Origin: Kribbella albertanoniae
Lineage (GTDB): Bacteria > Actinomycetota > Actinomycetes > Propionibacteriales > Kribbellaceae
DNA length: 64,000 nucleotides
Assembly (NCBI RefSeq): GCF_004348455.1
Contig: NZ_SMKA01000013.1
Span: 1 to 64,000, forward strand
Reading direction: 5' to 3'
In this document: in pieces, positions 3,533-63,622 of the stretch
Numbering within the stretch: the stretch's first letter is position 1
Layout: each line of letters begins with the position of its first letter
The notes under the pieces: generated by a model
The model's database searches: none
Told to the model about the DNA's origin: nothing
Seen by the model: the letters and a program-made list of their open reading frames with translations, nothing else
Made by a program: the position numbers and the translations under genes

Positions 3533-3560
3533 GACCTCAGTCTAGGGCTTGCGCGACACC

Positions 3561-3602: not shown

Positions 3603-3614
3603 AAGGAGGGGATC

Positions 3615-4514
<900 letters not shown>

Positions 4515-43071: not shown

Positions 43072-43078
43072 GTGAAAG

Positions 43079-43152
43079 TAGCGGGGGCAGGATTTGAACC
43101 TGCGACCTCTGGGTTATGAGCCCAGCGAGCTACCGAGCTGCTCCACCCCGCG
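43079..43152 (-). tRNA. Initiator tRNA-fMet (CAU), copy 1
   Basis: On the minus strand the 74 bases begin CGCGGGGTGGAGCAGC and fold into a cloverleaf with anticodon CAT in the loop C-T-C-A-T-A-A. Initiator features are the three G:C pairs at the foot of the anticodon stem (GGG/CCC) and an unpaired first position: C1 faces T72 as read here. The T arm is GGTTCAAATCC. No CCA is encoded. An identical copy lies at 63623-63696. Confidence 0.93.
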
Positions 43153-43208: not shown

Positions 43209-45638
43209 TCACTGCGCCAGGTAGCGCTGGGTGACCCACTGGGCGACGTGGACGCGGGACGGCATCCCGAGTTTGCGCATCACGTGCCGCACGTGGTTCG
43301 TCGCCGTCCACTCGGCGATGTTCAGCCGGTTCGCGATCTGCCGGTTGGTCAGTCCGTTCGCGACCAGTACGACGACCTCCCGTTCGCGCGCGGTGAGCGT
43401 CGTACCGTGGAACACGTCGGCCGGCGTGCGGTTCGCGTCGACGCGTTCTGTCCGTGCGGCTGCCTCGGTCCAGGCGGGTTGCTCGACCAGACCGGCGTCC
43501 TCGTCCAGCAGGGTCGGCAGTGGGAGCGTCTTGCCCGCGATGCAGGCGTTGTCGAAGGCAACGGTCCCCAGTCGTTGCCGCAGGTGCTGCAGCGCGCGGT
43601 CGACGTACGTGAGGATCTCCGCGCACGCGTAGCTTTGCGTCTCGGCCCGGATCGAGCCTGCGGCCGCGATCAGGCGAACGGCCGCCAGATCTGTCGGTGG
43701 CCGGCGACGGCCGGCGAGCACCAAGGCAAGAGCTTCCAGCGCGAACGGCGTACCAGGATGGGTCTGCATCTCGACCGCCTCCGACGCCACGGACTGGCAG
43801 ATGCGTTCAGCCTTCTGCTGATCACCGCGCCGGAAGGCCATCAGCCCGGCCAGCGCACGGACGCAGAGAGCGTTCCAGTCGTCGCCGTCCTCCTCCAGCA
43901 GCGGTAACGCGAAGCTGATCGCCTCATCGATCGCCGACACATCGCCACGGCGCATCGAGATCATGGCCAGGTCGATGAGCACCAGCGCCGCCGCCCGAGG
44001 CGCCTCGACTGCGCGCCACAGCGACAGGCTCTGCTCGCACAGTCTCCGGGCCGCCTGCAGATCGCCGCGGAGCCGGGCAAGGTTTCCCTGGCAGTTCAAG
44101 GCTGCTGCCTCGCCCGCGACCTCGCCGAGGTCGTGGAAGGCCGCAATCGCACGACGCTGGTAGTTCTCGGCGCAGGCGTACTTCCCAAGCGCCGTCGCCA
44201 GTACGCCGGCAGCGTGGAACGCGTCCGCGTTGAGCCGGCCGCCCGCGCGCACCAAGCCGTCCCCCAGCGTCTGCTCCAGCATCTGCAGGCCTTCACTCCA
44301 GTGGCCCTGGCTGAACATGAATCGCCAGATCCCAGTCGCCAGCGCGAGTGCAGCGTCAGTGTCACCACGGACGCGCAGGTGCTGGAAGGCCGCACGGGCG
44401 TCGGCCAGGTCCGACGTCAGCCGGCGAACGTACGCAGCGAGTCGTCCGCCGTAAAGATCCTGCCCGGCATCAGCAACCAGCCGCAGCACATACTCGGCGT
44501 GCCGGTCGCGCACCTCTTGCTCGTCATCGGCGCTCCGCAGCTGTTCGACGCAGAACGCTCTGGTCGTGTGCAGCTGATCGAACCGCGGCTCACCATCAGC
44601 ACCCACCGACGAGGTCAGCATCCCCTTGTCCAGCAGGGCTTCCAGCAATTCGTCACCGCGAGCCTGAGACACCTGTACGACGTCCGCCGCGGCCGCCGCG
44701 GTGAATCCGCCCGCGAAGACACCCAGCCTGATCAGGAGGTGGCGCTCCTCCTCCGTGAGCAACTGGTAGCCCCAGAGGATCGCCGCCCGCATGGACTGCT
44801 GGCGACGCGGGACATCGGTCAGTTCCAGGCGCAGGATGTCGAGTCCGTCGTGCAGCCTCGCCAGCAGAGCAGGTGGACCGAACAGCCGGAGCTTCGTGGC
44901 AGCGAGTTCGATGGCCAGAGGCAGTCCGTCGACGAGCCGGCAGATCTCAGCCACGTCGCTCACGTTGTCGTCGGTCAGAGCGAAGTCCGGTGCTACTGCT
45001 CGAGCCCGCTGCCCGAAGAGTGCCACCGAGGGGACCGCCGCGATCTCGGCCAGCGGAGCCCTTAAGGAGCGCACCAGCGGCAGCGGCCGGACCGGGTACA
45101 ACCGCTCGCCGTAGATCTGCAGCGGCTGCCGACTCGTGGTCAGAACCCGCAGACCGCGACAGTGCGACAGCAGACTGGTCAGCAGCTCGGCAACACCGTC
45201 CGCCACGTGCTCGCAGTTGTCGAGCACCAGCAGCAGCTCGCTGTCCCGCAGCCCGTCATGGAGGTTGGAGCTGCTGCCGAGCACGACCCGGCAGGCAGCC
45301 GTGACCGCGCCGGCGACCTGGCTCGACTCGGACAGCGATGCGAGCTCGACAGGCCAGGCGCCGTCCCGGAAGCCGGCCCGCACATCGCCGACCACGGCCT
45401 GAGCCAGCCGGGTCTTACCGGTACCGGCCGGGCCGGTGAGGGTGACCAGCTGCGCCGCGCCCTGGACGATCTGCCGCAGTGCGGCGCGGTCATCGTCACG
45501 GCCGACCATCCGATTGGGCGGGCGGACGCCGGCCGCCCAGGCTGCGGCGGCCGGGCCGATCCGTTCCGAGAGGCCACAGCTGCCGGCCTGCGGGTCGCCT
45601 CTTAGTCCCAAGCCTGCTATGTCACGTTGCCTGGCCAC
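43209..45638 (-). CDS. LuxR-family regulator with ATPase (AfsR/LAL-like) domain
   Basis: This large 809-residue regulator has an N-terminal P-loop ATPase with Walker A G-P-A-G-T-G-K-T near residue 70 and Walker B L-L-L-V-L-D-N-C-E-H near 135. A tetratricopeptide-like middle follows (about 400-690), and a C-terminal LuxR helix-turn-helix (L-T-A-R-E-R-E-V-V-V-L-V-A-N-G-L-T-N-R-Q-I-A near 745). The GTG start has a strong AGGAGG site six bases upstream. Such proteins often activate adjacent biosynthetic genes, here plausibly the polyketide-like operon to the right. An iron-box-like sequence lies about 70 bases upstream. Confidence 0.9.
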   Translation of the reverse strand: MARQRDIAGLGLRGDPQAGSCGLSERIGPAAAAWAAGVRPPNRMVGRDDDRAALRQIVQGAAQLVTLTGPAGTGKTRLAQAVVGDVRAGFRDGAWPVELASLSESSQVAGAVTAACRVVLGSSSNLHDGLRDSELLLVLDNCEHVADGVAELLTSLLSHCRGLRVLTTSRQPLQIYGERLYPVRPLPLVRSLRAPLAEIAAVPSVALFGQRARAVAPDFALTDDNVSDVAEICRLVDGLPLAIELAATKLRLFGPPALLARLHDGLDILRLELTDVPRRQQSMRAAILWGYQLLTEEERHLLIRLGVFAGGFTAAAAADVVQVSQARGDELLEALLDKGMLTSSVGADGEPRFDQLHTTRAFCVEQLRSADDEQEVRDRHAEYVLRLVADAGQDLYGGRLAAYVRRLTSDLADARAAFQHLRVRGDTDAALALATGIWRFMFSQGHWSEGLQMLEQTLGDGLVRAGGRLNADAFHAAGVLATALGKYACAENYQRRAIAAFHDLGEVAGEAAALNCQGNLARLRGDLQAARRLCEQSLSLWRAVEAPRAAALVLIDLAMISMRRGDVSAIDEAISFALPLLEEDGDDWNALCVRALAGLMAFRRGDQQKAERICQSVASEAVEMQTHPGTPFALEALALVLAGRRRPPTDLAAVRLIAAAGSIRAETQSYACAEILTYVDRALQHLRQRLGTVAFDNACIAGKTLPLPTLLDEDAGLVEQPAWTEAAARTERVDANRTPADVFHGTTLTAREREVVVLVANGLTNRQIANRLNIAEWTATNHVRHVMRKLGMPSRVHVAQWVTQRYLAQ

Positions 45639-45777: not shown

Positions 45778-46539
45778 TCATTTCGCCGCGTAGCCACCGT
45801 CGACCAACAGGTCTGTACCAGTGACGAACGAGGCGTCGTCGGACAACAGGAACAGGACGGCGGCAGCGATCTCCCGCGGCACCGCCATCCGGCCCATCGG
45901 TGTCGCCGCCACGAAGTCGGCCACGAACTGCTCCGGCAGCCCCACCGTCATCGGTGTCTCGACCAGGCCGGGTGAGACGGCGTTTACCCGGATCCCCGCG
46001 GCCGCCAACTCGACAGCCGCAGCGCGGGTCATCGCGGCCACCGCGCCTTTGGCCCCGTGGTACGCGAACGCAGCGCCGGAGCCGATCTGACCGAACACCG
46101 AGGACACGTTGACGATCGCGCCGCCACCGGCCAGGTGCATGAACGGTACGACGGTCTGCATCCCGAGCCAGGTGCCGCGCTGACTGACATCGACGACCCG
46201 ATCCCACTCGTCAGCTGTGACACCGGCGAGGCCGTGACCCCCGAGGACACCGGCGTTGTTCACCAGCAGCGTGGGATAGCCGAAACACCGACGGGCAGTC
46301 CTGGTGAGCCTCGCCCACGCCTCGGGGTCGGTGACGTCCGCCACCGCAGCCGCGACCCGGCCGGGGTGCCCAGCCGCCTCGATCTCCTTGGCTGCTGCCT
46401 CGCATCGATCACCGTCGAGGTCAGCGAGCACAACTCCGGCTCCAGCCGCGGCCAAACCTGCAGCCACGGCACGGCCGATGCCGCTGGCCGCACCTGTGAC
46501 CAGAGCGCTGCGGCCGGCCAGCCCCGCACCCGTCGTCAC
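45778..46539 (-). CDS. Short-chain dehydrogenase/reductase
   Basis: This 253-residue classical SDR has the coenzyme motif T-G-A-A-S-G-I-G near residue 16, N-N-A-G, an active-site serine in N-V-S-S-V-F-G and Y-H-G-A-K near residue 160. It is the last gene of the polyketide-like operon and overlaps the AcpS-like gene by four bases. It could oxidise or reduce an alcohol or ketone on the finished chain; the FabG-type gene upstream is the better candidate for chain ketoreduction. Confidence 0.9.
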   Translation of the reverse strand: MTTGAGLAGRSALVTGAASGIGRAVAAGLAAAGAGVVLADLDGDRCEAAAKEIEAAGHPGRVAAAVADVTDPEAWARLTRTARRCFGYPTLLVNNAGVLGGHGLAGVTADEWDRVVDVSQRGTWLGMQTVVPFMHLAGGGAIVNVSSVFGQIGSGAAFAYHGAKGAVAAMTRAAAVELAAAGIRVNAVSPGLVETPMTVGLPEQFVADFVAATPMGRMAVPREIAAAVLFLLSDDASFVTGTDLLVDGGYAAK

Positions 46540-46889
46540 GCTGCCGCCTCAACTGGCAGCCAGGCCAGGGCTACGGCGTACCCAGCGGCATGGCTGAGTG
46601 ACACCCGCGGCACCACGAGGTTCGCTTGCCGGCACCACCGCTCGATCGCACCGGCCAGCGATACCACCGGCGCGGAGGGCGGCGTACGGAGAATCTCGAT
46701 GCCCTGCCACGGAACCGGCCCGGGCCAGTGCAGTGCCTCGGCGACTGCGTGCTTCGCCGCCACCCGCGCGGCCAGGTGCTCGCCAGCGCGGGCGAACCCT
46801 GCGCAATAGGCCAGCTCTGCGGGGCTGAGGAACTGGTGCCATGCATAGGCATCAGTGGGCACCTGGAGGACATAGACGGCTGACATCAT
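46536..46889 (-). CDS. Degenerate AcpS-like protein
   Basis: This 117-residue protein has the fold pattern of holo-ACP synthase: the segment E-H-L-A-A-R-V-A-A-K-H-A-V-A-E-A-L aligns with the R-F-A-A-K-E-A helix. Two metal-binding positions look lost. There is no clear G-x-D at the N terminus, and the helix glutamate is histidine (A-K-H-A where A-K-E-A is expected). It may be inactive, a partner subunit or a binding scaffold. The start at 46889 gives the ATGA overlap with the ketosynthase stop. A canonical AcpS lies at the other end of the operon. Confidence 0.65.
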   Translation of the reverse strand: MMSAVYVLQVPTDAYAWHQFLSPAELAYCAGFARAGEHLAARVAAKHAVAEALHWPGPVPWQGIEILRTPPSAPVVSLAGAIERWCRQANLVVPRVSLSHAAGYAVALAWLPVEAAA

Positions 46890-49312
46890 TGCCACGGCGT
46901 CAGTACGACGGATGCGTACGTACCGCCCCAGTTGGCTGCTGTGATCAGTGCGGCACGTCCGGCGGGATCGTGGTCCGAGCTGACGTATGGCTCCAGCCCC
47001 GGCAACGGATCACGCAGTCCGGCGATCGATGGAACCCAGCTGGTGCTCACACTCTCGGCCGCGGCGAGTACTGACATCAGTGCAGTGGTGGCGTGGATGT
47101 GACCCACCTGGCCGGAGAGGTTGGCCAGTCGGGTCGAGCTGCCCGGGAACACGGCAGCCACAGCACGCGCCTCCGCCAGGTCGATCGCGGCGGTTCCCCG
47201 AGCGTCGCCGTACACGACTCCTACGTCGGACGGTGTCAGTCCCGCCGCGTCCAGGGCGCTGCGGTGACACTGTGCCCAGGCCTCCCCAGATGCGTCGTTA
47301 CCCGCCACCCGATAGGCATCCCCCGTGCTGGCGTGCCCGCGGACCTCGGCGAGGATCGTTGCCCCACGCTGTTGCGCGTGGTCCAACGACTCGAGCACGA
47401 GAGCCACTGAGCCCGCACCGATCGCGCAGCCGCTGGACTCGCGGTCGTAGGGATGGACGGCATCGGAGGCGAGGATTCCGAGGTGGTCGTAGCCGAGGTG
47501 GAGCAGTCCGGTCAGCTCGTCCGCGCTCACCGCTGCCATCACCTCCGCCTCACCCCTGCGGATCAGATCCGATGCATAGCCAAGGCCTGCGACGCCGGAC
47601 GCGCAGCCGATGGCCAGTGTGGACAACGGGCCCTTGATCTGCAGCGAAAGGCAGGCGTGGCCGGGCGCCGCGTTCATCACCGAGTTCGGGAACAGCCGTG
47701 GGTTGACACGGTGCGGACCCTCCGTACCGATCGTCTCGGTCAGCTGCGCCACCGTCTCCAGCGGTCCGGTACAGGTGCCGAACACCATCCCGACCTCAGT
47801 CGCGTTCTGGCGAGTGATTTGGTACGCCGCGTCTGAGAAGGCGTCTCGCGTCGCAGCCAGCACCAGTGCGCCGAGCTGGTCGAGCCGGCGGGCATACGCC
47901 GGGTTGATCCAGCGCCGGTAGCCCTGGTCGGTGATCTCCGCCGCGAGCCCGCTTGTGGACTGGCTGGTGTCGATCCGGGTCGCCGGAGCGATACCGACCG
48001 CACCTGTCCGCAGGCCGGTGATCAGGCCCTCGCGTCCCAGGCCTACCGACGAGACCACACCGGCACCGGTGATCACCACTCGGCGGTCTGGTCGCTGCGG
48101 ACCTGACTTGAGAGTCCTGCCGAGTACCAGCGAGCAGTTGTTGCCCCCGAACGCGAATGAGTTCGAGACCACCAGACCGATGTCGGCCGGGCGCGATGCG
48201 TTCGGCACGATGTCGTACGGCGGGCTGTCGGCCGAGGTGTCGACGTTCACTGTGGGCGGCAGAATCTGCTCACGCATTGCCAGCGCGCAGACCGCAGCCT
48301 CCACTGCCCCCGCGGCGCCGAGCGTGTGGCCGACCTGCGACTTGGTACTGCTCATCGGCGGCACCTTCTCGCCACCGAACAGCGCCGTCACAGCCTTGGG
48401 CTCAGAGCTGTCGTTCGCCGGGGTCCCGGTGCCGTGGCCGTTCACGTAGTCGACGTCCGCCGGCGTGTACCCAGCCTGCTCCAGCGCGCGTCGCATCGAT
48501 CGCAACGCTCCACCGCCCACTGGATCCGGAGCAGTCGCATGGTGCGCGTCGCTGGTCAGCGCATAGCCCAGTACGTAACCCAGCACTCGCGCGCCACGCG
48601 CTTGGGCTACCTGCGCGGACTCGAGCACCAGGAAGGCGGCGCCCTCCCCGATGTTGAGACCGCTGCTGCGTGAGTACGGCGCGCACGGTTGGTCGTCGAG
48701 CGCCTTCAGACTGTCGAACCCAGCCAGCGAGAGCATGTCGAGCACGTCCACGCCACCGGCCAGCATCACATCGGCCCGGCCTTCCCGGATCGCGTCCAGC
48801 GCCCAGCCGATCGAGTTGGCGCCGGCCGCACAGGCGTTGGAGATCACCACCTTCGGACCCTTCAGTCCGAAGGCCGCGCTGACCGCATCGGTCGACGTGT
48901 ACAGCGGGTACACCAGCAGGTGGGCCTTCGATGCGCCGGCGACGCCGTCCCGGAGCAGTTGCCAGTGGTACTGCTCACCCGCGTCGAGGCCGCCGACCGA
49001 CGTACCCATCGCAATCCCGACCCGGTACGGATCGAACGCCGCGATGTCCAGCTTGGCGTCCTCGATCGCCTCTGCCGCAGTACTCAACGCGAGGCGGATC
49101 GCGCGATCGGTCCGGCCCCGCCCCTTGATCGGCGGGACGGGGACTTCCGCGACCTCACCGGAGTACTGGCAGCTCAGCGGCGAGGTGTCCAGCCGCCGGG
49201 TCCGGCCGATCCCGCTCGCCGCGTCGCGTACGCCGGCCCAGACCGACTCGGCCCCGGTACCCAGCGCGCAGGTCATCCCGATGCCGGTAATGGCTACACC
49301 TGTGGCGTTCAT
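46886..49312 (-). CDS. Fused double ketosynthase (KS plus chain-length-factor-like half)
   Basis: This 808-residue protein consists of two tandem thiolase-fold ketosynthases. KS1 (1-400) has a full triad: cysteine in S-N-A-C-A-A-G, histidine in G-H-G-T-G-T-P and lysine/histidine in K-S-Q-V-G-H. KS2 (415-808) keeps a cysteine in I-G-C-A-S-G, but the first histidine motif reads G-D-A-R-G-T and the lysine is missing in L-S-G-Q-V-G-H. The arrangement resembles a KS-CLF heterodimer fused into one chain, though type II systems almost always use separate genes. A GAGGAG ribosome site precedes ATG 49312. It should extend chains on the ACP at 50863-51147. Confidence 0.9.
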   Translation of the reverse strand: MNATGVAITGIGMTCALGTGAESVWAGVRDAASGIGRTRRLDTSPLSCQYSGEVAEVPVPPIKGRGRTDRAIRLALSTAAEAIEDAKLDIAAFDPYRVGIAMGTSVGGLDAGEQYHWQLLRDGVAGASKAHLLVYPLYTSTDAVSAAFGLKGPKVVISNACAAGANSIGWALDAIREGRADVMLAGGVDVLDMLSLAGFDSLKALDDQPCAPYSRSSGLNIGEGAAFLVLESAQVAQARGARVLGYVLGYALTSDAHHATAPDPVGGGALRSMRRALEQAGYTPADVDYVNGHGTGTPANDSSEPKAVTALFGGEKVPPMSSTKSQVGHTLGAAGAVEAAVCALAMREQILPPTVNVDTSADSPPYDIVPNASRPADIGLVVSNSFAFGGNNCSLVLGRTLKSGPQRPDRRVVITGAGVVSSVGLGREGLITGLRTGAVGIAPATRIDTSQSTSGLAAEITDQGYRRWINPAYARRLDQLGALVLAATRDAFSDAAYQITRQNATEVGMVFGTCTGPLETVAQLTETIGTEGPHRVNPRLFPNSVMNAAPGHACLSLQIKGPLSTLAIGCASGVAGLGYASDLIRRGEAEVMAAVSADELTGLLHLGYDHLGILASDAVHPYDRESSGCAIGAGSVALVLESLDHAQQRGATILAEVRGHASTGDAYRVAGNDASGEAWAQCHRSALDAAGLTPSDVGVVYGDARGTAAIDLAEARAVAAVFPGSSTRLANLSGQVGHIHATTALMSVLAAAESVSTSWVPSIAGLRDPLPGLEPYVSSDHDPAGRAALITAANWGGTYASVVLTPWQ

Positions 49313-49340
49313 GTGCTCTCCTCACGCGGGCGGATTGCGG

Positions 49341-50363
49341 TCATTCGAGCGGTACGCCGAAGCTGGTAGCGACCAGGAACGGAGCTGCAGTGGTCCGGAT
49401 CGGCCGGGTGAGCTGCTCAAGGGTCAGCTTCAGACCGGCCGCCGCGACATCGGCGTCGACCCGGGCCGTGCCGATCACGCGACCGAGCCGGGGCGAGTAC
49501 ACCGCGTGGGCGACGGCACCCACCGATTCGTCCTCCACCACCAGCCAGCTGCCCGGGTCCGGAATCGCCTGCAGCCGATCGGAGGCGATCCAGCAGACCG
49601 GGCGGCGCGGCGGGCCGGCCTCCCAGTGCGCAACGAGAGCGTCCTTCCCGATGAAGTCGTGCCCGAAGTCGACCATCCACTGCAAGCCGACCTCGAACGG
49701 CGTCACACCGGCCGCTTCCTGTTCCAGGTTGGCGAACCGCATCTCCATCCGGCAGACGTTCACGGCTGCCAGACCGACCTGCCGCGCACCGAGATCGACG
49801 AGATGCCGGCGCAACTCGTTGCCTGCAGCAACCGGTACATGCAGTTTGTAGCCGTATTCGCCGGTCACTCCGGTGCGGCTCACCAGGAGCTCCAGGTCGT
49901 CGCGCCAAGGCGTGGTGACGAAGCCGGCGTACGAGAGTGAGGTGATCGGGAATGGCAGGAACTTCTGCGCGATCGCAGGCGCCTGCGGACCCTCGATGCC
50001 GAAGACGCAGTACTCGTCACCAACATCCTGCACGGTCACGTCGTGCGCACCGGTGTTGCCGGCGGCAACCAGGTACTCGGTCGCGGCCGCCGCCTGGGCC
50101 GGCCAGATCTCGATGAGGTAGTCGGTGCCGTGGCAGTGGATCAACACCTCGGCCAGCACTGACCCGTCCGAGTTCAGCAGCAGTGCCGACGAGATCTGCC
50201 CCTCGAGCAGGAAATCGACGCTGCGGGTCGACACCTGGCTGAGGAAGGCCGACGCGCCACTACCGGCGATTCGGAGCAGGCCGATGCCGCTGTAGTCGAT
50301 CAGCCCGCACGCACTGCGCAGCACTTCGTATTCGGCGACGCTGTCGGAGTAGACGCTCTCCAT
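49341..50363 (-). CDS. GcvT-family (aminomethyltransferase-like) folate-binding protein
   Basis: This 340-residue protein has the glycine-cleavage T-protein/YgfZ fold: the segment A-C-G-L-I-D-Y-S-G-I-G-L near residue 18, D-F-L-L-E-G-Q-I-S-S near residue 50, R-T-G-V-T-G-E-Y-G-Y-K near residue 165, and the C-terminal barrel with G-R-V-I-G-T-A. Family members use tetrahydrofolate to take or give one-carbon units (GcvT, DmdA, LigM). No glycine-cleavage partner genes are nearby, so a special one-carbon or demethylation step in this pathway is likely. The start at 50363 has the AGGGGAG site; ATG 50378 overlaps the dehydratase stop. Confidence 0.85.
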   Translation of the reverse strand: MESVYSDSVAEYEVLRSACGLIDYSGIGLLRIAGSGASAFLSQVSTRSVDFLLEGQISSALLLNSDGSVLAEVLIHCHGTDYLIEIWPAQAAAATEYLVAAGNTGAHDVTVQDVGDEYCVFGIEGPQAPAIAQKFLPFPITSLSYAGFVTTPWRDDLELLVSRTGVTGEYGYKLHVPVAAGNELRRHLVDLGARQVGLAAVNVCRMEMRFANLEQEAAGVTPFEVGLQWMVDFGHDFIGKDALVAHWEAGPPRRPVCWIASDRLQAIPDPGSWLVVEDESVGAVAHAVYSPRLGRVIGTARVDADVAAAGLKLTLEQLTRPIRTTAAPFLVATSFGVPLE

Positions 50364-50374
50364 GGTTCTCCCCT

Positions 50375-50866
50375 TCATTCGCTGTCCCGTTCGGTGACGA
50401 CGAGCCGGGCCGTCATCACCACGTCGCGGCCGACCGACGCCTGGCCGGTCACCGACATGAGGTCGCCCATCCTGGGACCGGCCTGGGCCCGGACGACCAC
50501 TTGATCGCCAGGCAGCACGGTGCGCAGGAACTTGGCCTGTTTGATCTCCGCGAGGTAGCCGACCCGCTCTGCGACATCGGCCACCAGCTCACCGGTGCTC
50601 CGGGTCGCCGCTGCGCTGCCATAGATCACCGCGGCGAGCTGCGCGACACATTCGACGAGCAGCACGCCTGGGTAGAGCATCCGGCCGGGAAAGTGGCCGG
50701 CGAGCACCGGATCGGAGGCGGTGACGTTCTTGATCGCCTCGGCCCGTACGCCGGGCTCGACCGAGGTGACCCGGTCCAGCAGGGCGAACGGGTACCGGTG
50801 CGGGAGCAGTCGCGCGATCTCGTCGGCCGACAGACCACCTGGTCGCACGGACGGCGCCGCGGTCAT
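50375..50866 (-). CDS. 3-hydroxyacyl-ACP dehydratase (FabZ-like)
   Basis: This 163-residue hotdog-fold dehydratase has L-P-H-R-Y-P-F-A-L-L-D near residue 20 and the catalytic histidine and glutamate pattern G-H-F-P-G-R-M-L-Y-P-G-V-L-L-V-E near residues 57-72, as in FabZ. It should remove water from beta-hydroxyacyl-ACP to give enoyl chains. No enoyl reductase is present in the operon, so double bonds may be kept. It overlaps the ACP gene by four bases. Confidence 0.92.
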   Translation of the reverse strand: MTAAPSVRPGGLSADEIARLLPHRYPFALLDRVTSVEPGVRAEAIKNVTASDPVLAGHFPGRMLYPGVLLVECVAQLAAVIYGSAAATRSTGELVADVAERVGYLAEIKQAKFLRTVLPGDQVVVRAQAGPRMGDLMSVTGQASVGRDVVMTARLVVTERDSE

Positions 50867-51147
50867 CGATTGCCTTCTACATAGTCGACGAGCCGGTTGA
50901 GCGAGAGCAGGCTCTCGGTGTCGTCGTCGGTGATCATCACACCGAACTTCTCCTCCACGGCCATCGCCAGTTCGAGGGTGTCGATGGAGTCGAGCTCGAG
51001 TCCCCTACCGAACAGCGGCTGGTCGTCACCGATCAGGTCTGGGTCTACCGAGAGGCCGAGCCGGTCCACCAGCAGGTGTTTGACCTCACCGCAGAGGACC
51101 TGCCGAGCCTTTGCGGCTGTCTTCGTCTCTTCCAGCGTTGCCACCAT
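50863..51147 (-). CDS. Acyl carrier protein
   Basis: This 94-residue ACP has its phosphopantetheine serine in G-L-E-L-D-S-I-D-T-L-E-L near residue 55. The start chosen is ATG 51147; the frame is open much further upstream, but only as a shadow of the reductase gene. An extension of about 15 residues precedes the usual ACP start. It is flanked by the reductase and dehydratase genes and should carry the growing chain. Confidence 0.92.
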   Translation of the reverse strand: MVATLEETKTAAKARQVLCGEVKHLLVDRLGLSVDPDLIGDDQPLFGRGLELDSIDTLELAMAVEEKFGVMITDDDTESLLSLNRLVDYVEGNR

Positions 51148-51182
51148 GTGGGCCACTTCCTGTCGCGTTGTTGGGTGGGCGT

Positions 51183-51917
51183 TCAGCAGGTCAAGCCGCC
51201 GTCGATGACGACGGAGGCTCCGGTCACATAGGCCGACTCGGCACCGAGCAGAAACCGGACCACCGGCGCCACGTCCGCCGGCGTACCGATGCGGCCCAGT
51301 GGTACTCGTTCCATGAAGGCGGTCAGCTGGTCCTGCGGCATCGAGCGCGTCATCGCGGTGTCGACGAAGCCAGGGACCACCGCGTTGACCCGGATGCCGT
51401 AGCTGCCAAGCTCCTTCGCCAGCACCCGGACCATGGCCAGCACACCTGCTTTGGAGGCGGCGTAGTTCACCTGTCCGGCCGGTGCGGCCAGGCCGCTGGT
51501 GGAGGCAACCGCGACGATCGCGCCAGTACGCCGTACTGCCATCAACCGGGCTGCCGCACGGCAAACCAGGAACGAGCCGGTGAGGTTCGTGTCGACGACG
51601 GACCGCCATTTCTGCTCGCCCATCATCAGCGCGTAGCCGTCACTCGCGATGCCGGCGTTGCTGACCAGGCCGTCCAACTGGCCGTGGTCGGAGCGAATCC
51701 GGCGGAACATCCGGTCCACGTCGGTGGGCTCGGCGACATCGGCCTGGATCAGCTCCGCGTCCGGCTGCAGCTCGCGGACCTGATCGAGCGCCTGCTTCGC
51801 CTGCTCGATGTCGCGCCGATAGTTCAGCAGCACTCGGCTGCCGGCGGCGGCCAGCTCCAGTGCGACGCCGAGACCGATCCCCTTGGTGGCGCCGGTTATC
51901 AGAACCACGTTGGTCAT
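51183..51917 (-). CDS. 3-oxoacyl-ACP reductase (FabG-type SDR)
   Basis: This 244-residue SDR has T-G-A-T-K-G-I-G at the N terminus, S-N-A-G near residue 80, Y-A-A-S-K near residue 148 and the FabG-type ending Y-V-T-G-A-S-V-V-I-D-G-G. It should reduce beta-ketoacyl-ACP to beta-hydroxyacyl-ACP. The start at 51917 makes an ATGA overlap with the acyltransferase gene; a longer frame start at 51956 is less likely. Confidence 0.92.
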   Translation of the reverse strand: MTNVVLITGATKGIGLGVALELAAAGSRVLLNYRRDIEQAKQALDQVRELQPDAELIQADVAEPTDVDRMFRRIRSDHGQLDGLVSNAGIASDGYALMMGEQKWRSVVDTNLTGSFLVCRAAARLMAVRRTGAIVAVASTSGLAAPAGQVNYAASKAGVLAMVRVLAKELGSYGIRVNAVVPGFVDTAMTRSMPQDQLTAFMERVPLGRIGTPADVAPVVRFLLGAESAYVTGASVVIDGGLTC

Positions 51918-52846
51918 GGCTGACTCACCGCCGCCAGCGCACCGAGCGCCTCGCAACCGGTCAGATGTCTAGCGGTCCGGATCATGTTTCGCCCCAACCC
52001 GGTCAGCACCCGGCCCGGGCCGACCTCGACGAAGGTGCGTGGGCCGCTCCGGGTGAGCGATGCGACGGTGTCGGTCCAGCGCACCGGCCGGGTGATCTGT
52101 CCGCCGAGCAGCTTCCGGTACTTCTCGATGTCGTGGACCACGCCACCAGTGAGGCTGGAAACGAACGGCACCCGCGGTGCTCGCAGATCCGCCGCCGCGA
52201 GCAGCGGCGCAAGCTCACGCTCGGCCTCGGACATCAGCGGCGAGTGGTAGGCACCGCCGACCGGCAGCCGTTTCACCCGCAGGGCGCCAGCCGACTGGGC
52301 AGCGTCGACCACTCCGCACACCTCATCGGTTGTCCCGGAGACAACCACCTGCCGGGGTGCATTCAGGTTCGCCATGACCACGATGCCGCCGCCGACCGAG
52401 AACCGTGCGCACAGGTCGGTCACCTGGTCATCCGAGAGCCCTGCGATGGCGGCCATCGCGCCCGGCTGACACCGTGCAGCATCGGCCATCGCTCGCCCTC
52501 GCCGGGCCACGATTGCCAGCGCGGCTTCCCAGCTGAGACAGCCGGCCGCGACGAGGGCGGCGTACTCGCCGAGGCTGTGCCCAGCGACCGCGACCGGTCG
52601 GCATCCGGCAGCTGCGAGCTCGGCTGCCAGCACGCTGGACCAGACGAAGATCGTGAGCTGGGCGGCCTCGGGATCGGCCAGCGTCCGCTCGTCCGCCCGG
52701 GTCATCAGCTCGCCGATGGCGACTCCGGTCAGCTGCTCTGCTTGGACGATCAGCTCGCGCGCTTCGACGCCGCAGCGGGCCAGCTCGCGGCCCATCCCGG
52801 GGCGCTGGCTGCCCTGACCGGGAAACACGAACGCTGTGTCGATCAT
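51914..52846 (-). CDS. Malonyl-CoA:ACP acyltransferase (FabD-like)
   Basis: This 310-residue acyltransferase loads malonyl units on the ACP. The active serine lies in G-H-S-L-G-E near residue 90, the substrate arginine in R-R-G-R-A-M near residue 115 and the catalytic histidine in Y-H-S-P-L-M near residue 195. The F-P-G-Q-G-S-Q N terminus is standard. The ATG at 52846 overlaps the AcpS stop (ATGA). Having its own FabD makes this operon independent of primary fatty acid synthesis. Confidence 0.93.
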   Translation of the reverse strand: MIDTAFVFPGQGSQRPGMGRELARCGVEARELIVQAEQLTGVAIGELMTRADERTLADPEAAQLTIFVWSSVLAAELAAAGCRPVAVAGHSLGEYAALVAAGCLSWEAALAIVARRGRAMADAARCQPGAMAAIAGLSDDQVTDLCARFSVGGGIVVMANLNAPRQVVVSGTTDEVCGVVDAAQSAGALRVKRLPVGGAYHSPLMSEAERELAPLLAAADLRAPRVPFVSSLTGGVVHDIEKYRKLLGGQITRPVRWTDTVASLTRSGPRTFVEVGPGRVLTGLGRNMIRTARHLTGCEALGALAAVSQP

Positions 52847-53280
52847 CGCGCCGCCTCCACTTCGGTGGCGACCGCCCAGCACAGGGCGAGATCGGGGCCG
52901 AGTGCATCGTCGGCGGGCAGGACGCCGCCGGTCAGAACGACCCGGTGGTCGTTAGCCAGCTCGCCCCGTAGGCCGATGAGGCGGACGCCGTCGGTGTCGG
53001 CCCTGCCGACGATGATGTCGCGGTAGCAGGCGCCGGCCGGCAGACCGCCGACCACCTTGACCACGCACTCCTTGATCCCGAACATACGGGCCAGGTGCGC
53101 GAGCTCCGCCGTACCAGGCAGTTGCTCGGCGTCCCATTCGGTGGTGGCGAAAATTCGCCGCAGCCACGCCGGACCGGTACGCCGTGCGGCCAGCGCGAAC
53201 CGCTGCTGGTCCAGCAGGTCGACACCGGCACCACGCAGCCGGCCGGCCGGAACCCGGCAGGTATCGATGGCAGAAATCAT
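52843..53280 (-). CDS. Holo-ACP synthase (AcpS-type phosphopantetheinyl transferase)
   Basis: This 145-residue AcpS-type enzyme activates the operon ACP with coenzyme A. The metal-binding aspartate is present in G-V-D-L-L-D near residue 19 and the lysine-glutamate pair in F-G-I-K-E-C-V-V-K near residue 70. It is the first gene of the nine-gene minus-strand operon, about 80 bases downstream of a good promoter. It differs from the degenerate AcpS-like protein at the other end of the operon in keeping its metal ligands. Confidence 0.85.
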   Translation of the reverse strand: MISAIDTCRVPAGRLRGAGVDLLDQQRFALAARRTGPAWLRRIFATTEWDAEQLPGTAELAHLARMFGIKECVVKVVGGLPAGACYRDIIVGRADTDGVRLIGLRGELANDHRVVLTGGVLPADDALGPDLALCWAVATEVEAAR

Positions 53281-53367
53281 GAATTGCTCCCAACACGCGC
53301 TGAATCGAGGGGCGGGCCGGCTCGGCTATTTACCTTCCGAGCAGTTGATAGCGCGGGACAGGACGGA

Positions 53368-53397
53368 ATGCTAGGAATCGTTTCGCGGCAGTGTCAA
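53368..53397 (-). promoter_or_regulatory. Promoter of the polyketide-like operon
   Basis: On the minus strand a perfect TTGACA (53392-53397) and TAGCAT (53368-53373) are spaced by 18 bases, about 88 bases upstream of the AcpS gene start. This is a good housekeeping-sigma promoter. Confidence 0.6.
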
Positions 53398-53479
53398 GGA
53401 ATAGTCGTATGACTGATTCCTGCTAGCCGGTAAATGCAGCGTCGGGATAGCAGGGATCAGCCATGGCGGGCCGGATTGC

Positions 53480-53509
53480 TTGACACCACGACAAGCCGGA
53501 CACCAATCT
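53480..53509 (+). promoter_or_regulatory. Possible promoter of the thioesterase/oxidase pair
   Basis: A perfect TTGACA (53480-53485) is followed after 18 bases by CAATCT (53504-53509), a weak -10. It would give a leader of about 110 bases before the thioesterase gene. Confidence 0.4.
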
Positions 53510-53628
53510 TGGCGCAGCCGCCACAGCCGGCTCAAATTGTTGAGAGTCGCACCATAAAGAGGTTTATGGCCACCCCGAGATTTATGGAAGATCTTTCATT
53601 TTCTCAATCGAGCGGAAGGAAACGGCCT

Positions 53629-54078
53629 ATGCCGCGCTGGGTCGAAACTGCGCCCCGGATCATGCGCCAGGCATTCGTGGAGACGGGTGTCCGGGTCCGC
53701 TGGTCCGAGTGCGATCTGCAGCGCCATGCCTACTACGGCAACTACATGACCTGGTGCGACCTCGGCCGCGAGGCCTTCGCCCTGGCCGCCGGCGTCGACT
53801 ACCGGGACTACCTGGTCACCACCACCGAATTTCACATCCGATTCCACACACCGGCCCACTACCTCGACGACCTACTGATCCGGACCTGGACGGCACCGCT
53901 CACCATCCGCCTCGACTGTCATTACGAGATCTACCGCAAAACCGGTGGGCAACTGATCGCCGAGGCGAAGTCACAACACGCGCTGGTGGACCCGCAGAAA
54001 GGACTTCGCCTGAGCGGCCCGGCATCCTGGCACGAGAAATTCGAGGCATTTCTCGAAAATAGGAAGGCTTCGTTATGA
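53629..54078 (+). CDS. Hotdog-fold acyl-(ACP/CoA) thioesterase (4HBT/YbgC-like)
   Basis: This 149-residue hotdog thioesterase has the signature W-S-E-C-D-L-Q-R-H-A-Y-Y-G-N-Y-M-T-W near residue 23, with the catalytic aspartate of the 4-hydroxybenzoyl-CoA thioesterase group. ATG 53629 is chosen because GGAAGG lies eight bases upstream and family homology begins right after it; upstream in-frame ATGs at 53566 and 53581 lack good sites. It overlaps the oxidase gene by four bases. It probably releases the chain built by the divergent operon. Confidence 0.85.
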   Translation: MPRWVETAPRIMRQAFVETGVRVRWSECDLQRHAYYGNYMTWCDLGREAFALAAGVDYRDYLVTTTEFHIRFHTPAHYLDDLLIRTWTAPLTIRLDCHYEIYRKTGGQLIAEAKSQHALVDPQKGLRLSGPASWHEKFEAFLENRKASL

Positions 54079-55454
54079 ATCAGCTCCCGACCGATCAACT
54101 GGCCGCGCAAATGCGCGGTGAAATCGTTGTCCCGGGTGATCCCGGCTACGACGACGCCCGGCACGTCTACAACGGCATGATCGATCGTCGGCCCGCCGTG
54201 ATCGCCCACTGCCGCGGCGTCGCCGATGTCGTCCACTCGGTGCGGTTCGCCGTAGCGCACGACCTACCGGTCGCCATCCGCGGCGGTGGCCACAGCGTTG
54301 CCGGCCACGGCACCTGCGACGACGGCCTGCTGGTCGACCTGTCCGGCATGCGCGACGTCCGCGTCGATCCGGTGGCGCAGACCGTGCGCGTCTCGGGTGG
54401 CGCCACGCTGGCTGACCTGGATGCCAACACGCAACTGTTCGGCCTGGCCACACCCAGCGGCCAGGTTTCGATGACCGGCATCGGAGGGCTGGCGCTGACG
54501 GGTGGCATGGGAATGCTGCAGCGTCGCTACGGCCTCACCTGCGACAACCTCCTGTCCGCTGACGTAGTCACCGCAGACGGCACAGTCGTCACCGCCAGCG
54601 CCGACAGCCATCCCGAGCTGTTCTGGGCGCTGCGTGGCGGCGGCGGAAACTTCGGCGTGGTGACCTCGTTCGAGTTCCGCTGCCATCCGGTCGGTCCGAC
54701 CATCCTCGCCGGCATGGTCGCCTGGCCGGTCGAACAGGCGCCCGAGGTGCTGGCCTTCCTACGCGACTTCATCGTGGACACTCCCGAGGAGCTGAGCGCG
54801 GACGCCGTCATCCAGTTCGCCCCACCGCTCGACGTCATCCCGGAGGAACACCGCGGCCGCCGGCTGATCGGAATCTTCCTGCGGTACTTCGGCACCGACC
54901 TCGACCCGGAGATCGTGCGTCCGGTCCAGGAGTTCGGATCACCGGTCCTCGACTTCATCTACCCAATGCCGTACGTCGCCGTACAGCAACTGCTCGACCC
55001 GCTGAACCCGAACGGCAACCTGCACTACTGGACCGGCGAATACCTCCCCGAACTGGGCACCAAACAAATCGAAACCCTGTCCACGTACGCCGCCACCCTG
55101 CCGACCGACCACTCGATCATGCAGGTGATCCCGTTCGACAACGCCGTGACCCGGGTCGAGCCGGACGCCACCGCCTTCAGCCACCGCCAGGACAGCTGGC
55201 TGATCCACGTCATGGCCCAATGGACCGACCCCACCGACACCGACCGCTGCCGAAGCTGGGCCAAACAAGCAGGTGCCGACCTCCGCGCAGTCGGCTCCGG
55301 AGACAGCTACCTCAACCTCGTCACCGACGAGGAAGACGTAGACCGAGTCAGCGCCTTCTGGAACGAGGCCCGCCTGTCCCGGCTCGCGGCAGTAAAGGCC
55401 CAGTACGACCCGAACAACACCTTCCGCTTCAACCACAACATCAAGCCGGCTTGA
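54075..55454 (+). CDS. Berberine-bridge-enzyme-type FAD oxidoreductase
   Basis: This 459-residue FAD-linked oxidase of the PCMH/BBE family has a histidine for covalent flavin attachment in R-G-G-G-H-S near residue 76, the segment G-G-L-A-L-T-G-G-M-G near residue 140, a cysteine in Y-G-L-T-C-D-N-L that lies where bicovalent members attach a second time, and the BBE C-terminal motif Y-D-P-N-N-T-F-R-F-N. Such enzymes oxidise alcohols, close rings or desaturate secondary metabolites. It is the second gene of the divergent pair and is likely a tailoring enzyme for the polyketide-like product. Confidence 0.9.
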   Translation: MNQLPTDQLAAQMRGEIVVPGDPGYDDARHVYNGMIDRRPAVIAHCRGVADVVHSVRFAVAHDLPVAIRGGGHSVAGHGTCDDGLLVDLSGMRDVRVDPVAQTVRVSGGATLADLDANTQLFGLATPSGQVSMTGIGGLALTGGMGMLQRRYGLTCDNLLSADVVTADGTVVTASADSHPELFWALRGGGGNFGVVTSFEFRCHPVGPTILAGMVAWPVEQAPEVLAFLRDFIVDTPEELSADAVIQFAPPLDVIPEEHRGRRLIGIFLRYFGTDLDPEIVRPVQEFGSPVLDFIYPMPYVAVQQLLDPLNPNGNLHYWTGEYLPELGTKQIETLSTYAATLPTDHSIMQVIPFDNAVTRVEPDATAFSHRQDSWLIHVMAQWTDPTDTDRCRSWAKQAGADLRAVGSGDSYLNLVTDEEDVDRVSAFWNEARLSRLAAVKAQYDPNNTFRFNHNIKPA

Positions 55455-60373: not shown

Positions 60374-63331
60374 CTACGGGGTGACCGTGACTACCGTGCC
60401 CCCGATCTCGGTGAAGCCGTCGGAGTAGCTGACCCGGCCGAGATACTTCGTCGCCGGGGTGAGGCCGGTCCACGACACCGTGATGTCCGCTGAGCCGCCG
60501 ATGGTGGCGGTCGCCGTACTTGACGTCGCCGTCATGTTGCCTGTGGCGGTGCCCGGCACGAGCCAGCGGAAGAGGGTGTAGACGGCGTCGGCACCGTCGG
60601 TCTCGAAGCCGTGCGCGTAGAGGCGATAGGTGCCCGCGCCGGGCTTGGCGAGGTCGATGAGTTCCGCGCTGGTGGTGGTGAAGCTGGCCCCGACGAGGGT
60701 CAACACGCCTCCCGCGCCGACCCGGTACAAGTACAGGTCGATGTCGTCGTTGCCGTCGGTGAACTCGTCGAACAGTTGCACCCGCAGCAGCGGCGTGCCG
60801 CTGGGCACCGCGAACTCGTGCACCTGGATGCCCTGGTTGGCGTCCGGAGCATTCGCGTTGAAGTCGTTCGCCGGGTCGTCGACGATCGTCCTCGTCTCGG
60901 TCGTCGCTGCCACGAGACCTTGCGGCGCGACGTTGAAGCTGCCCGAGTAGCCGAACTTGACGGCGTACTGGAGCGATCCGGTTGCCCCTGTGCCCGCCGC
61001 GGAGGCCGGCGCGGCGATGCTGACCGGGCGGACCACCACCGGGCTTCGCACGCTGTGGCCGGCGCTGTCCGACCAGGTCAGCGCCCCGAAGCTGTACTCG
61101 TCGAAATCCGCAGCCGGGGTCGACGTGAACGTGACCTGGTACGAGGCCGTGGCGCCGGTGCCGAGGGTCAGCACGCTCGGGGTGACCACGACGTCAACCC
61201 CTGGCGGTGCGGCGACGGAGACCGCGTAGGTCCCGGCCGGGCCGACGTTGCGCACCGTACGTGTCACCGTCCGGACGCCCGCGAGCGAGCGGACCGTGAT
61301 CGTCGCAGCGTTGAAGTCGGTCGGAGCGATGACCGGCGCCGGGGTGGTGCCGAAGCAGAGAGTGCACAACCCCTGGCTTCGCAGGAACGCCCGGTAGTCG
61401 TCGAAACCGGCTGGGTAGACGAGACCGGGATCCGCCGCGCTGTTGGGCACGATGTGACCCGCACCGAAGTCGAACGGGTCGGCAGGCGTACTGCCGTCCT
61501 CCTTCCACACGTCCTGCCGGGCACTCGTCATGAGCGCCGACTGCATCATGTCGGGCGTCCAGCCGGGATGCCGATCCCGCAGCAGCGCGCCGATGCCGGC
61601 GACGTGCGGGCTGGACATCGACGTACCGGCGATCGCCTGGAACAGCTGGCCGGGCGCCCCGACGAACGCGGTCGGGGTGTTGCCGGCCAGGATCTGGACG
61701 CCGGGCGCGGTGACGTCCGGCTTCAGCAGGTCACCCGTGCTCCGCGCGCTGTCGACCAGCGGTCCGCGGGACGAGAACGCCGCCATGGTGTTGCCGCCAC
61801 CGAAAGCCTTCGCGCCACCCGACAGCGATGCCGTCGGAGCACTGGTCGCCGCGATGTACGTCTTGATCGCGAGGCCGTCGGAGTTGCGGATGTGGACGGT
61901 CGGCACATAGTGGTTGTCACTCAGCAGCGCGTCGCTCTGGTCCACCGTGTAGAGGATCATCCCGACGCCACCCGCGTTCTTGACCCCCAGGCTCCGTGCC
62001 GCTCGGGAGAAGCTCCCCTTGCACAGCACGATCTTGCCCGTCACAGCCGCCGGGGCGAGGCCGGACAGGCAGCCCTCGCTGCCCGCCGCCGCACCGTCGA
62101 CCAGCGGCGTCGCCGCGAGCCCCGGCGTGACGGAGGCACCTTGGAAGGCCGCGCCGTTGCCGAGCGTCGCCGTACCGACGAGCGAGCGGTTCTGGGTGCT
62201 CGCACCGACCGTCGTCAGCCACGGACCGCCGTGGTCGACCGTGCTGGGACCAGGTCCGGAGTTGCCTGCCGAGGCCGCGACGAAGACACCGGCCTGCCGG
62301 GCGAACAGGAAGGCGACGTCATCGGCGTCAAGGAAGTCCGGATCGTCGTCGCCGATCGAATAGTTGATGACGTCGACACCGTCGCCGACCGCCGAGTCGA
62401 TCGCGCCGACGAGGTCGCTGACCGCGCAGCCGCCCGGCCAGCAGGCCTTGTACGCCGCGACCCGGGCGCGCGGCGCCATCCCGCTGACCGTGCCGAAGCT
62501 GCGTCCGAAGATCGACGCGTTGACGTTAGCGTTGCCGCCGGCGGTTGACGTGGTGTGCGTACCGTGGCCGTCGTGGTCGCGCGCCGAGATGTAGTCGTCC
62601 TTCAGCCCTCCGCCGAAGTGGCCGAAGCCCTTGTGGAAGTAGCGGGCGCCGATCAGCTTGTTGCTGCACTGCTGCTGGCTCCACAGCTGGCCGGACTGGC
62701 ACACCCCGTTCCAGCCGGCCGGCACGGGGCCGTAGCCGGCGGCGGCGAAGCTCGGGTGCTCCGGCCAGATACCGGTGTCCACCACACCGATGATCACGTC
62801 CTCCCCGGCGCTGCCCTGCCCGCCGAGCTGGCTCCAGAGACCGCCGGCGGCGTTCAGTCCGAGAAAGGCCGGCGTGTTGTCGGTTTTGACCTGCGCCAGC
62901 TTGTCCCGCTGGATCGAGACGACGCCGGGCGTCGTGCTCAGCTTCGCCAGCTGTGCCTTGGTGAGCGTCGCCGCGAAGGCGTTCAGCGAGTACTCGTAGT
63001 CGTACTCCCGCGTCGCGCCGACGCTGTTCGCCACCTGGGCGTGCCGGGAGCGCAGGTAGTTGACGTACCGCTGGACCTTCGCGTCCTTCTTGTTGAACCG
63101 CTTTCCGGCCGCCGGCTTCGTCGCCGGGTAGCCGGCGATCCCGCCTGCGTATGCGCCTGCGGGTGCCTCACCGAGCAGCACCAGGTAGACGTCGCTGGCG
63201 CCTGCCTTGCCGCTGCCTGCGGGCGCTGCGCCCGGACTCTCCCCCTGGGCCCCGGCCGCACCAGTGGTGACCGTGGCCGTGATCAGGCACGCAACGAGGA
63301 CGACGATCCATCCCCCCATGAGTCGCTTCAT
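60374..63331 (-). CDS. Secreted subtilisin-type (S8) serine protease
   Basis: This 985-residue pre-pro-protease has a Sec signal near residues 1-30, cleaved around A-A-G-A-Q-G, then an I9 propeptide (about 45-150). The S8 domain carries catalytic aspartate in G-V-V-D-T-G-I-W near 180, histidine in H-D-G-H-G-T-H-T near 255 and serine in G-T-S-M-S-S-P-H near 560. A protease-associated insert lies near 400-500, as in cucumisin-like subtilases, followed by a fibronectin-type region (660-760) and two beta-rich C-terminal parts. ATG 63331 has an AGGGGAG site; the frame runs 12 codons further upstream. It is likely extracellular and nutritional. Confidence 0.93.
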   Translation of the reverse strand: MKRLMGGWIVVLVACLITATVTTGAAGAQGESPGAAPAGSGKAGASDVYLVLLGEAPAGAYAGGIAGYPATKPAAGKRFNKKDAKVQRYVNYLRSRHAQVANSVGATREYDYEYSLNAFAATLTKAQLAKLSTTPGVVSIQRDKLAQVKTDNTPAFLGLNAAGGLWSQLGGQGSAGEDVIIGVVDTGIWPEHPSFAAAGYGPVPAGWNGVCQSGQLWSQQQCSNKLIGARYFHKGFGHFGGGLKDDYISARDHDGHGTHTTSTAGGNANVNASIFGRSFGTVSGMAPRARVAAYKACWPGGCAVSDLVGAIDSAVGDGVDVINYSIGDDDPDFLDADDVAFLFARQAGVFVAASAGNSGPGPSTVDHGGPWLTTVGASTQNRSLVGTATLGNGAAFQGASVTPGLAATPLVDGAAAGSEGCLSGLAPAAVTGKIVLCKGSFSRAARSLGVKNAGGVGMILYTVDQSDALLSDNHYVPTVHIRNSDGLAIKTYIAATSAPTASLSGGAKAFGGGNTMAAFSSRGPLVDSARSTGDLLKPDVTAPGVQILAGNTPTAFVGAPGQLFQAIAGTSMSSPHVAGIGALLRDRHPGWTPDMMQSALMTSARQDVWKEDGSTPADPFDFGAGHIVPNSAADPGLVYPAGFDDYRAFLRSQGLCTLCFGTTPAPVIAPTDFNAATITVRSLAGVRTVTRTVRNVGPAGTYAVSVAAPPGVDVVVTPSVLTLGTGATASYQVTFTSTPAADFDEYSFGALTWSDSAGHSVRSPVVVRPVSIAAPASAAGTGATGSLQYAVKFGYSGSFNVAPQGLVAATTETRTIVDDPANDFNANAPDANQGIQVHEFAVPSGTPLLRVQLFDEFTDGNDDIDLYLYRVGAGGVLTLVGASFTTTSAELIDLAKPGAGTYRLYAHGFETDGADAVYTLFRWLVPGTATGNMTATSSTATATIGGSADITVSWTGLTPATKYLGRVSYSDGFTEIGGTVVTVTP

Positions 63332-63617: not shown

Positions 63618-63622
63618 TGTAG

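Follow-up and report, generated by a model that had tools for sequence, protein, structure and literature searches.

Organization of the locus

We have analyzed a window of 64,000 nucleotides from the actinomycete Kribbella albertanoniae (contig NZ_SMKA01000013.1, positions 1 to 64,000) and describe here a block of eleven genes within it, at 45778-55454. Taken as a full pathway, the block is likely to specify a self-contained, cyl-like reducing type II polyketide synthase (PKS) that would make a linear conjugated polyene carboxylic acid. Gene families were assigned by Pfam and NCBIfam profile matches across the genes of the block, and the assignments are summarized in Table 1. Nine genes on the minus strand are transcribed in the order AcpS-like 1, FabD, FabG, acyl carrier protein (ACP), FabZ, a GcvT-like protein (called CylF-like below), a fused ketosynthase and chain-length factor (KS-CLF), AcpS-like 2 and a short-chain dehydrogenase/reductase (SDR). 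None of the nine contains an internal stop and their spacing ranges from -4 to +35 bases, with 4-base overlaps at five of the eight junctions. A preliminary description of this DNA, made from the sequence alone, had proposed an overlapping nine-gene operon of this content together with a divergent thioesterase and a BBE oxidase; every gene was recovered where that description had placed it, the last two by their matches to Pfam 4HBT_2 and FAD_binding_4/BBE.

For comparison, loci were chosen by KS-CLF similarity and each kind of gene was then scored with family hidden Markov models (HMMs). Ten actinomycete loci besides the window (L012-L014, L022 and L139-L144) show the eleven genes in identical order and orientation, so that a chance assembly is very improbable; only the ACP of L142 was not detected by HMM. 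All eleven genes are under purifying selection between the window and L012, with ratios of nonsynonymous to synonymous substitution (dN/dS) of 0.05 to 0.26; in a second pair, L022 and L140, the ratios span 0.06 to 0.63. The longest open reading frame (ORF) of the thioesterase begins at 53434, but its start is likely to be 53584, and the L012 orthologue is called at 165 aa. The NCBIfam model closest to the BBE oxidase is BagK/FevA1, at 236 bits far under the cut-off of 800.

Table 1. Features of the eleven-gene block
Feature	Length (aa)	Coordinates	Strand	Basis and remarks
AcpS-like protein 1	145	52843..53280	-	Pfam ACPS, E 9e-6; NCBIfam AcpS models
FabD-type malonyl-CoA:ACP transacylase	310	51914..52846	-	Pfam Acyl_transf_1, 3e-46; NCBIfam fabD, 7.7e-75, slightly below cut-off
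FabG-type beta-ketoacyl-ACP reductase	244	51183..51917	-	NCBIfam 3oxo_ACP_reduc, 4e-77
Acyl carrier protein	94	50863..51147	-	Pfam PP-binding, 1.3e-8; NCBIfam ACP families
FabZ-type dehydratase	163	50375..50866	-	Pfam FabA-like, 1.1e-19; NCBIfam PRK00006 FabZ, 4.6e-37 (above cut-off); TIGR01750 fabZ (below cut-off)
CylF-like (GcvT-fold) protein	340	49341..50363	-	Pfam GCV_T, 2.1e-40; alternative upstream ATG at 50378
Fused KS-CLF	808	46886..49312	-	Pfam, NCBIfam and residue check; half 1 catalytic KS, half 2 CLF-like
AcpS-like protein 2	117	46536..46889	-	No Pfam match; NCBIfam holo-ACP synthase, 2.8e-12, profile positions 37-111 of 116
Classical SDR oxidoreductase	253	45778..46539	-	Pfam adh_short_C2, 8.6e-62; YxxxK in sequence; GTG start
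4HBT-family (hotdog) thioesterase	164	53584..54078	+	Pfam 4HBT_2, 3.3e-12
BBE-type FAD-linked oxidase	459	54075..55454	+	Pfam FAD_binding_4, 1.5e-34, and BBE, 1.8e-9; 4-base overlap with the thioesterase gene
Divergent intergenic region, presumed promoters		53281..53583	.	Gene arrangement alone; separates the operon from the thioesterase-oxidase pair

The ketosynthase and the predicted chain chemistry

The preliminary description had noted a double KS. Both halves are indeed present, and they can now be told apart. In the first half the residues Cys161-His293-Lys324-His329 are intact in all 34 KS-CLF rows aligned, while the KS His is replaced in the second half of all 33 readable rows (L035 is gapped at this site). 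A catalytic KS joined to a KS-like partner without active-site residues is the arrangement by which a type II KS-CLF is recognized, and the second half is accordingly described here as CLF-like. 

The same description had found no enoyl reductase. The family that fits the SDR best in Pfam (adh_short_C2) is labelled enoyl-ACP reductase; NCBIfam ranks the protein with glucose dehydrogenases and FabG types, and it carries the YxxxK motif of classical SDRs, from which FabI differs in spacing. On account of this motif and this ranking we agree that the block is without a FabI-type enoyl reductase. With a ketoreductase (KR) and a dehydratase (DH) and no enoyl reductase, each cycle of elongation should leave a double bond in the chain.

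Two AcpS-like proteins with complementary motifs

AcpS is recognized by the motifs GxD, KE and SxSH in a single chain. In each of the 12 loci compared, GxD and SxSH are instead split over two chains: AcpS-like 1 keeps GxD and FxxKE and lacks the C-terminal SxSH (the GxD of L144 was read by eye, as GLD), and AcpS-like 2 keeps SLxH and lacks GxD. Profile matches divide the two proteins in a comparable way. In the window, AcpS-like 1 aligns with the NCBIfam AcpS models starting at position 3-4 and stopping at 58-81% of model length, and AcpS-like 2 sets in at position 25 or later and runs on almost to the last position; this contrast is repeated in L022, where one match of AcpS-like 1 extends to 87%. 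In comparisons with solved AcpS structures, all 20 matches listed for AcpS-like 1 end at or before residue 116 of 143, and 28 of the 29 listed matches of AcpS-like 2 stop within 11 residues of the chain end.

The active sites of AcpS sit between subunits, and in the fused Sfp enzymes the two sets of motifs lie on different halves of one chain. A two-subunit enzyme is for this reason the natural reading, and the complementary motifs most likely mark the two proteins as parts of one phosphopantetheinyl transferase. We know of no such transferase encoded by two genes, and no description of one was found in the open-access literature searched.

In a possible but less probable account the two do not form one enzyme: AcpS-like 1 would be a complete transferase that has diverged, and AcpS-like 2 a copy that has become regulatory or has decayed. 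This would be consistent with the metal-binding motifs retained in AcpS-like 1 and with the Glu after Lys of the KE motif, which is kept in six of the 12 AcpS-like 2 proteins. Three observations argue the other way. SLxH is found in 12/12 AcpS-like 2 and 0/12 AcpS-like 1 proteins; the single AcpS proteins of three related loci (L148, L155 and L156) combine an SxSH-type motif with one or both of the remaining motifs (the motif pattern used missed GxD in L156 and KE in L155); and AcpS-like 2 is under constraint, with dN/dS of 0.14 and 0.34 in the two pairs.

Besides the retained Glu, several results limit the case for a two-subunit transferase. AcpS-like 1 has the highest dN/dS of the eleven genes in both pairs (0.26 and 0.63). 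AlphaFold2 predictions of the AcpS-like proteins from two-row alignments had pLDDT values of 54.9 and 39.7, too poor to use, and in a Foldseek search with the low-confidence AcpS-like 2 model every match had E >1, the top one being an AcpS. On the Priestia megaterium plasmid pBM500, which is described below, the candidate for AcpS-like 2 has no match in Pfam or NCBIfam; with a model made only from AcpS-like 2 of five actinomycete rows it comes top of the 134 ORFs of the locus, although weakly (12.8 bits, E 0.0006), and the same leave-out test applied to AcpS-like 1 of the plasmid gave 46 bits.

The CylF-like protein

A CylF-like gene lies immediately upstream of the KS-CLF gene in 29 of the 29 KS-CLF loci that have a CylF-like match above 90 bits; orthology was judged here by comparison with the CylF-like genes of CylE-bearing loci. 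The protein of the window falls under the curated cut-offs of the NCBIfam GcvT models (160.9 against 300 and 112.9 against 235.85 bits). Of the positions D96, E195 and R227 of the Thermotoga maritima T-protein, which we take to be catalytically important, none is kept in any of the 29 CylF-like rows, and all three are kept in the two other GcvT-family proteins of the same genome (L017 and L018). Twelve rows, those of the window's clade and that of Priestia, have Glu at the D96 position, so that a changed rather than a lost chemistry is possible.

CylF has been proposed to make ammonia for ornithine (consulted parts of PMC6985545). If this were its sole purpose, it should have been lost together with CylE, yet it is kept in the 14 CylE-less loci described below. 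This retention, together with the replacement of the T-protein residues in 29/29 rows, speaks against the ammonia role and would favour a role in the synthase.

Relation to the cyl operons

Published cyl operons of Gram-positive bacteria combine malonyl loading, KR, ACP, DH, a double KS and CylF, and both CylF and CylE are called universally present, CylE serving also as the basis of the published tree (PMC6985545, in the parts consulted). The block shares with them FabD/CylD, a CylG-type KR, an ACP, a CylZ-type DH, the double KS CylH/I and a CylF-like gene, and the gene table printed in those parts of the paper is likewise without an enoyl reductase. The series FabD-FabG-ACP-FabZ-GcvT-KS/CLF is thus the lipid core of the cyl operons, and the statement of the preliminary description that it could not match the combination to a known pathway no longer holds. 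A close match to a system whose product is known was not found, in comparisons that did not extend to MIBiG. In the open-access literature searched, the eleven-gene block itself is described nowhere, and granadaene goes unmentioned in the consulted portion of a 2025 review of type II PKSs (PMC12664062).

Unlike the cyl operon as published, the block has a thioesterase, a BBE oxidase, an SDR and two complementary AcpS-like proteins, and it has no CylE; neither the CylA/CylB ABC transporter nor a glycosyltransferase was found among the eleven genes, the stretch to which the search for these was confined. CylE-like proteins of about 700 residues are encoded between FabZ and the CylF-like gene in L026, L027, L028 and L035, and a profile was built from these four and applied with limits of E 0.01 and 0.0001. 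CylE was not found with it in the genome of the window, in 12 other genomes (one of which, G791, is 79% complete) or on pBM500, in which only GNAT-sized stretches matched, with at most 29.4 bits. The best match in the window's own genome reached 18.6 bits, and two genomes used as positive controls gave 422 and 133 bits. Since the defining feature, CylE, was not found, we refrain from calling the locus a cyl operon and read it as a CylE-less branch built on the same core.

Among the 29 KS-CLF loci with a CylF-like match, CylE was not found in 14, present in 13 and undecided in two (L025 and L029, which were excluded from the CylE contrast). The 14 are the 11 actinomycete loci, Priestia, Paenibacillus L023 and L155; L024 was counted as CylE-bearing on a weak match of 33 bits. 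A thioesterase is detected by HMM in 14/14 CylE-less and 4/13 CylE-bearing loci, a contrast that fits a swap of the release step. Two things weaken it: the Fisher p of 0.00015 is uncorrected for shared ancestry, and a hotdog-like protein seen by eye in L024 would raise the second count to 5/13. L023 sits amid the CylE-bearing Bacilli of the KS-CLF tree, and L155 adjoins them. These positions suggest that CylE was gained or lost more than once. The Lachnospiraceae locus L024 (cyl-like) also lies beside genes for a PALP-family enzyme, an ornithine cyclodeaminase-family enzyme and an ABC ATPase (12854-15840), the first two being a pair of types used in diaminopropionate synthesis.

It is quite unlikely that the locus is a true granadaene-type operon, one whose polyene would be glycosylated and linked to ornithine by means of a CylE, a transporter and a glycosyltransferase encoded elsewhere in the genome. 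The common lipid core, the CylF-like gene and the restriction of the transporter and glycosyltransferase search to the block leave some room for it, but the low scores of the CylE profile beside those of its controls, and the presence of a thioesterase in every one of the CylE-less loci, tell against it.

Distribution and phylogeny

In the family of the window, the KS-CLF search places the locus in three of 38 genomes, the window's included, all of one genus. In the genus of G289, which we take to be Streptomyces, 18 of 392 genomes exceed the KS-CLF threshold and seven, G289 included, score above 1300 bits; eight weaker genomes and a second match in G840 were left out. The genes flanking L140, a locus of that genus, are 87-98% identical to those of L022 (Streptomyces sp. 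HD). Wider draws gave two of 394 genomes over threshold for the class and two of 396 for the phylum, the window's own counted in each, and the other phylum-draw match, L148, is not accompanied by a CylF-like gene. Nine of 398 genomes were over threshold in the class to which the Paenibacillus locus belongs, its own included. A scan of genome contigs gave at least 80 loci; among the 80 listed, nine have a CylF-like match above 90 bits beside KS-CLF, a stray 27-bit match in L098 was disregarded, and the remaining 70 loci, of which some lie on short contigs, were left aside. The duplicate loci L001, L009-L011 and L016 were not counted.

Three of the 53 plasmid records with a KS-CLF match were examined. 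On plasmid pBM500 of Priestia megaterium QM B1551 (NC_014025.1) ten of the eleven kinds of gene stand together in one run, a second point against regarding the combination as unmatched. The run consists of an SDR, a thioesterase, AcpS-like 1, FabD, FabG, an ACP (annotated as a phosphopantetheine-binding protein), FabZ, a GcvT-like protein, KS-CLF and a protein annotated as hypothetical, which occupies the position of AcpS-like 2, followed by a major facilitator superfamily (MFS) transporter. It differs from the window in having no BBE oxidase, an adjacent MFS transporter, and the SDR and thioesterase at its 5' end; its KS-CLF is 41% identical to that of the window, and the model that its SDR matches best is that of FabG, ahead of that of the window's SDR, so that the two are not equated here as the same gene. 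The consulted part of an exosporium paper dealing with pBM500 mentions neither fatty acid, ketoacyl, pigment nor acyl carrier.

Maximum-likelihood trees with midpoint roots were made from 34 KS-CLF rows and 31 CylF-like rows. Priestia is the closest outside row to the actinomycete loci in both, with moderate support (87/79 for KS-CLF and 88/87 for CylF-like) that is below the program's mark for firm support. The 11 actinomycete rows are grouped at 100/99 in the CylF-like tree.

Neighboring genes

A LuxR-type regulator of 809 aa (43209-45638) lies directly downstream of the SDR. It also accompanies the operon in both other loci from the genus of the window (88% identity in L012 and 69% in L013) and was not seen near the Streptomyces-type loci when flanking genes were compared. 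Past the BBE oxidase there is a subtilase-family gene (60374-63367), also found near the block in L012, with 88% identity. Two tRNA-Met genes are on the minus strand, one just past the LuxR-type gene (43078-43152) and the other at 63622-63696.

Between 9310 and 35426 the window contains genes for a FecCD-type permease, nonribosomal peptide synthetases (NRPS), a siderophore-interacting protein and ABC transporters (22551-26062, part of the NRPS region), which together resemble a siderophore locus; the 3100-aa gene at 26124-35426 was outside the scan. The presence of NRPS genes in the same window might suggest that the block is a hybrid fatty-acyl supply for the neighboring NRPS and makes an unsaturated lipid tail. 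We judge such a link unlikely, and give it no more credit than a true granadaene operon, from the neighbors and the gene content: the 20-kb stretches around L012, L013 and L014 matched no NRPS gene of the window except for a 25% match to an AMP-binding gene in L014, the neighbors that do recur are the LuxR-type gene (L012, L013) and the subtilase (L012), and the siderophore-interacting protein and FecCD-type permease make the NRPS region look like a siderophore cluster.

The surroundings of eight Streptomyces-type loci were compared by sequence similarity, the Pfam names of the flanking genes being taken from L022 and, for two, also from L014. An MFS transporter is present in 8/8, an MMPL protein, a flavin-containing monooxygenase (FMO)-like protein and an alpha/beta hydrolase in 7/8 each, and an AMP-binding ligase in 4/8. 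In L022 the FMO-like monooxygenase and the hydrolase lie beyond the BBE oxidase (1075-3867) and could be a cassette for trimming the chain end. As a guess, a chain with a hydroxyl beside a terminal methyl would be trimmed at that end by the joint action of an alcohol oxidase, a Baeyer-Villiger-like monooxygenase and an esterase.

Comparison with other reducing type II systems

Aryl polyene (APE) clusters resemble the block in their KS-CLF, KR, DH, ACP and thioesterase and make a polyene carboxylic acid, as is proposed for the block, but have separate KS and CLF genes and a further KS, an aromatic starter ligase, a methyltransferase and RND/Lol-type export, and no GcvT-like gene appears in the printed gene table (PMC8253772, in the parts consulted). 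An aryl polyene assignment was rejected for this difference in gene set. The Lactobacillus reuteri fun/pks clusters were considered as relatives; in the consulted part of their description thioesterase, aminomethyltransferase and glycine cleavage are not mentioned. Two clusters on Streptomyces plasmids (L020 and L021) and a second double-KS cluster in the window's own genome (contig C33, L015 7426-14241) share the fused double KS, KR and DH with the window but carry additional genes for KS and DH, and in none of the three was a CylF-like gene detected by HMM. Least probable of all is a cyclizing, cispentacin-like type II PKS forming a small ring, which was rejected: the KS-CLF exceeds the NCBIfam cut-off for AmcF (352 against 325), probably through the summing of its two KS halves, but the weak AmcE and AmcB matches stay below theirs (79.8 against 140 and 35.1 against 80), the presence of a KR and a DH points to repeated reduction, and the block is without a gene like AmcH, the adenylating enzyme found in almost all cispentacin-type clusters (consulted parts of PMC10698177).

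Proposed pathway and its implications

In the pathway that we propose, FabD would load malonate onto the dedicated ACP, which would itself be activated by the operon's two-subunit transferase, AcpS-like 1 furnishing the metal-binding half and AcpS-like 2 the SxSH half. The fused KS-CLF would carry out condensation and set the chain length, each new keto group being reduced by FabG and dehydrated by FabZ, with one double bond left per cycle. The CylF-like protein would act as an accessory of the synthase and not as a source of ammonia. In granadaene, CylE joins the chain to ornithine, and rhamnose sits on a hydroxyl close to the opposite end. Here the hotdog thioesterase may take the place of CylE and free the acid, and the BBE oxidase and the SDR may then oxidize it, the likeliest target being a hydroxyl near the far chain end. 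The product is probably a coloured, chain-like polyene acid. The view of the preliminary description, a self-contained machine whose unsaturated chain is freed and then oxidized, is thereby retained as the best reading, its chemical steps being those that we infer from the genes.

We lean towards a further proposal on the history of the operon, namely that an obligate two-subunit transferase arose by duplication of AcpS, each copy holding one part of the active site, and that it serves a CylE-less branch of the cyl-like systems in which a CylF-like protein that is not a T-protein acts as accessory of the synthase.

Other findings weigh against the pathway as drawn. The score of the KS-CLF over the AmcF cut-off is one; the chain length cannot be read from sequence, and the SDR might in principle reduce rather than oxidize. 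The CylE model rests on actinobacterial rows, with which CylE proteins of Bacilli score 66-146 bits, and a very divergent CylE could escape it. In the KS-CLF tree the 12-row group of the actinomycete loci, supported at 100/100, includes L146, which has no CylF-like neighbour, and the tree program flags the joins of L146 and Priestia as potential long-branch artefacts.

Two features look new: the complementary AcpS-like pair, and a CylF-like protein without the T-protein residues that is kept where CylE is not. The locus sets the polyene-building core apart from the machinery for adding ornithine and sugar, so that the role of CylF becomes testable without ornithine, and in soil bacteria. If the two AcpS-like proteins do form one enzyme, this division of a phosphopantetheinyl transferase over two genes would be unusual in a family that is widely used for natural-product engineering. 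The clade also marks probable polyene acids, of which no description was found in the open-access literature searched, in Streptomyces-type and Kribbella-type actinomycetes.

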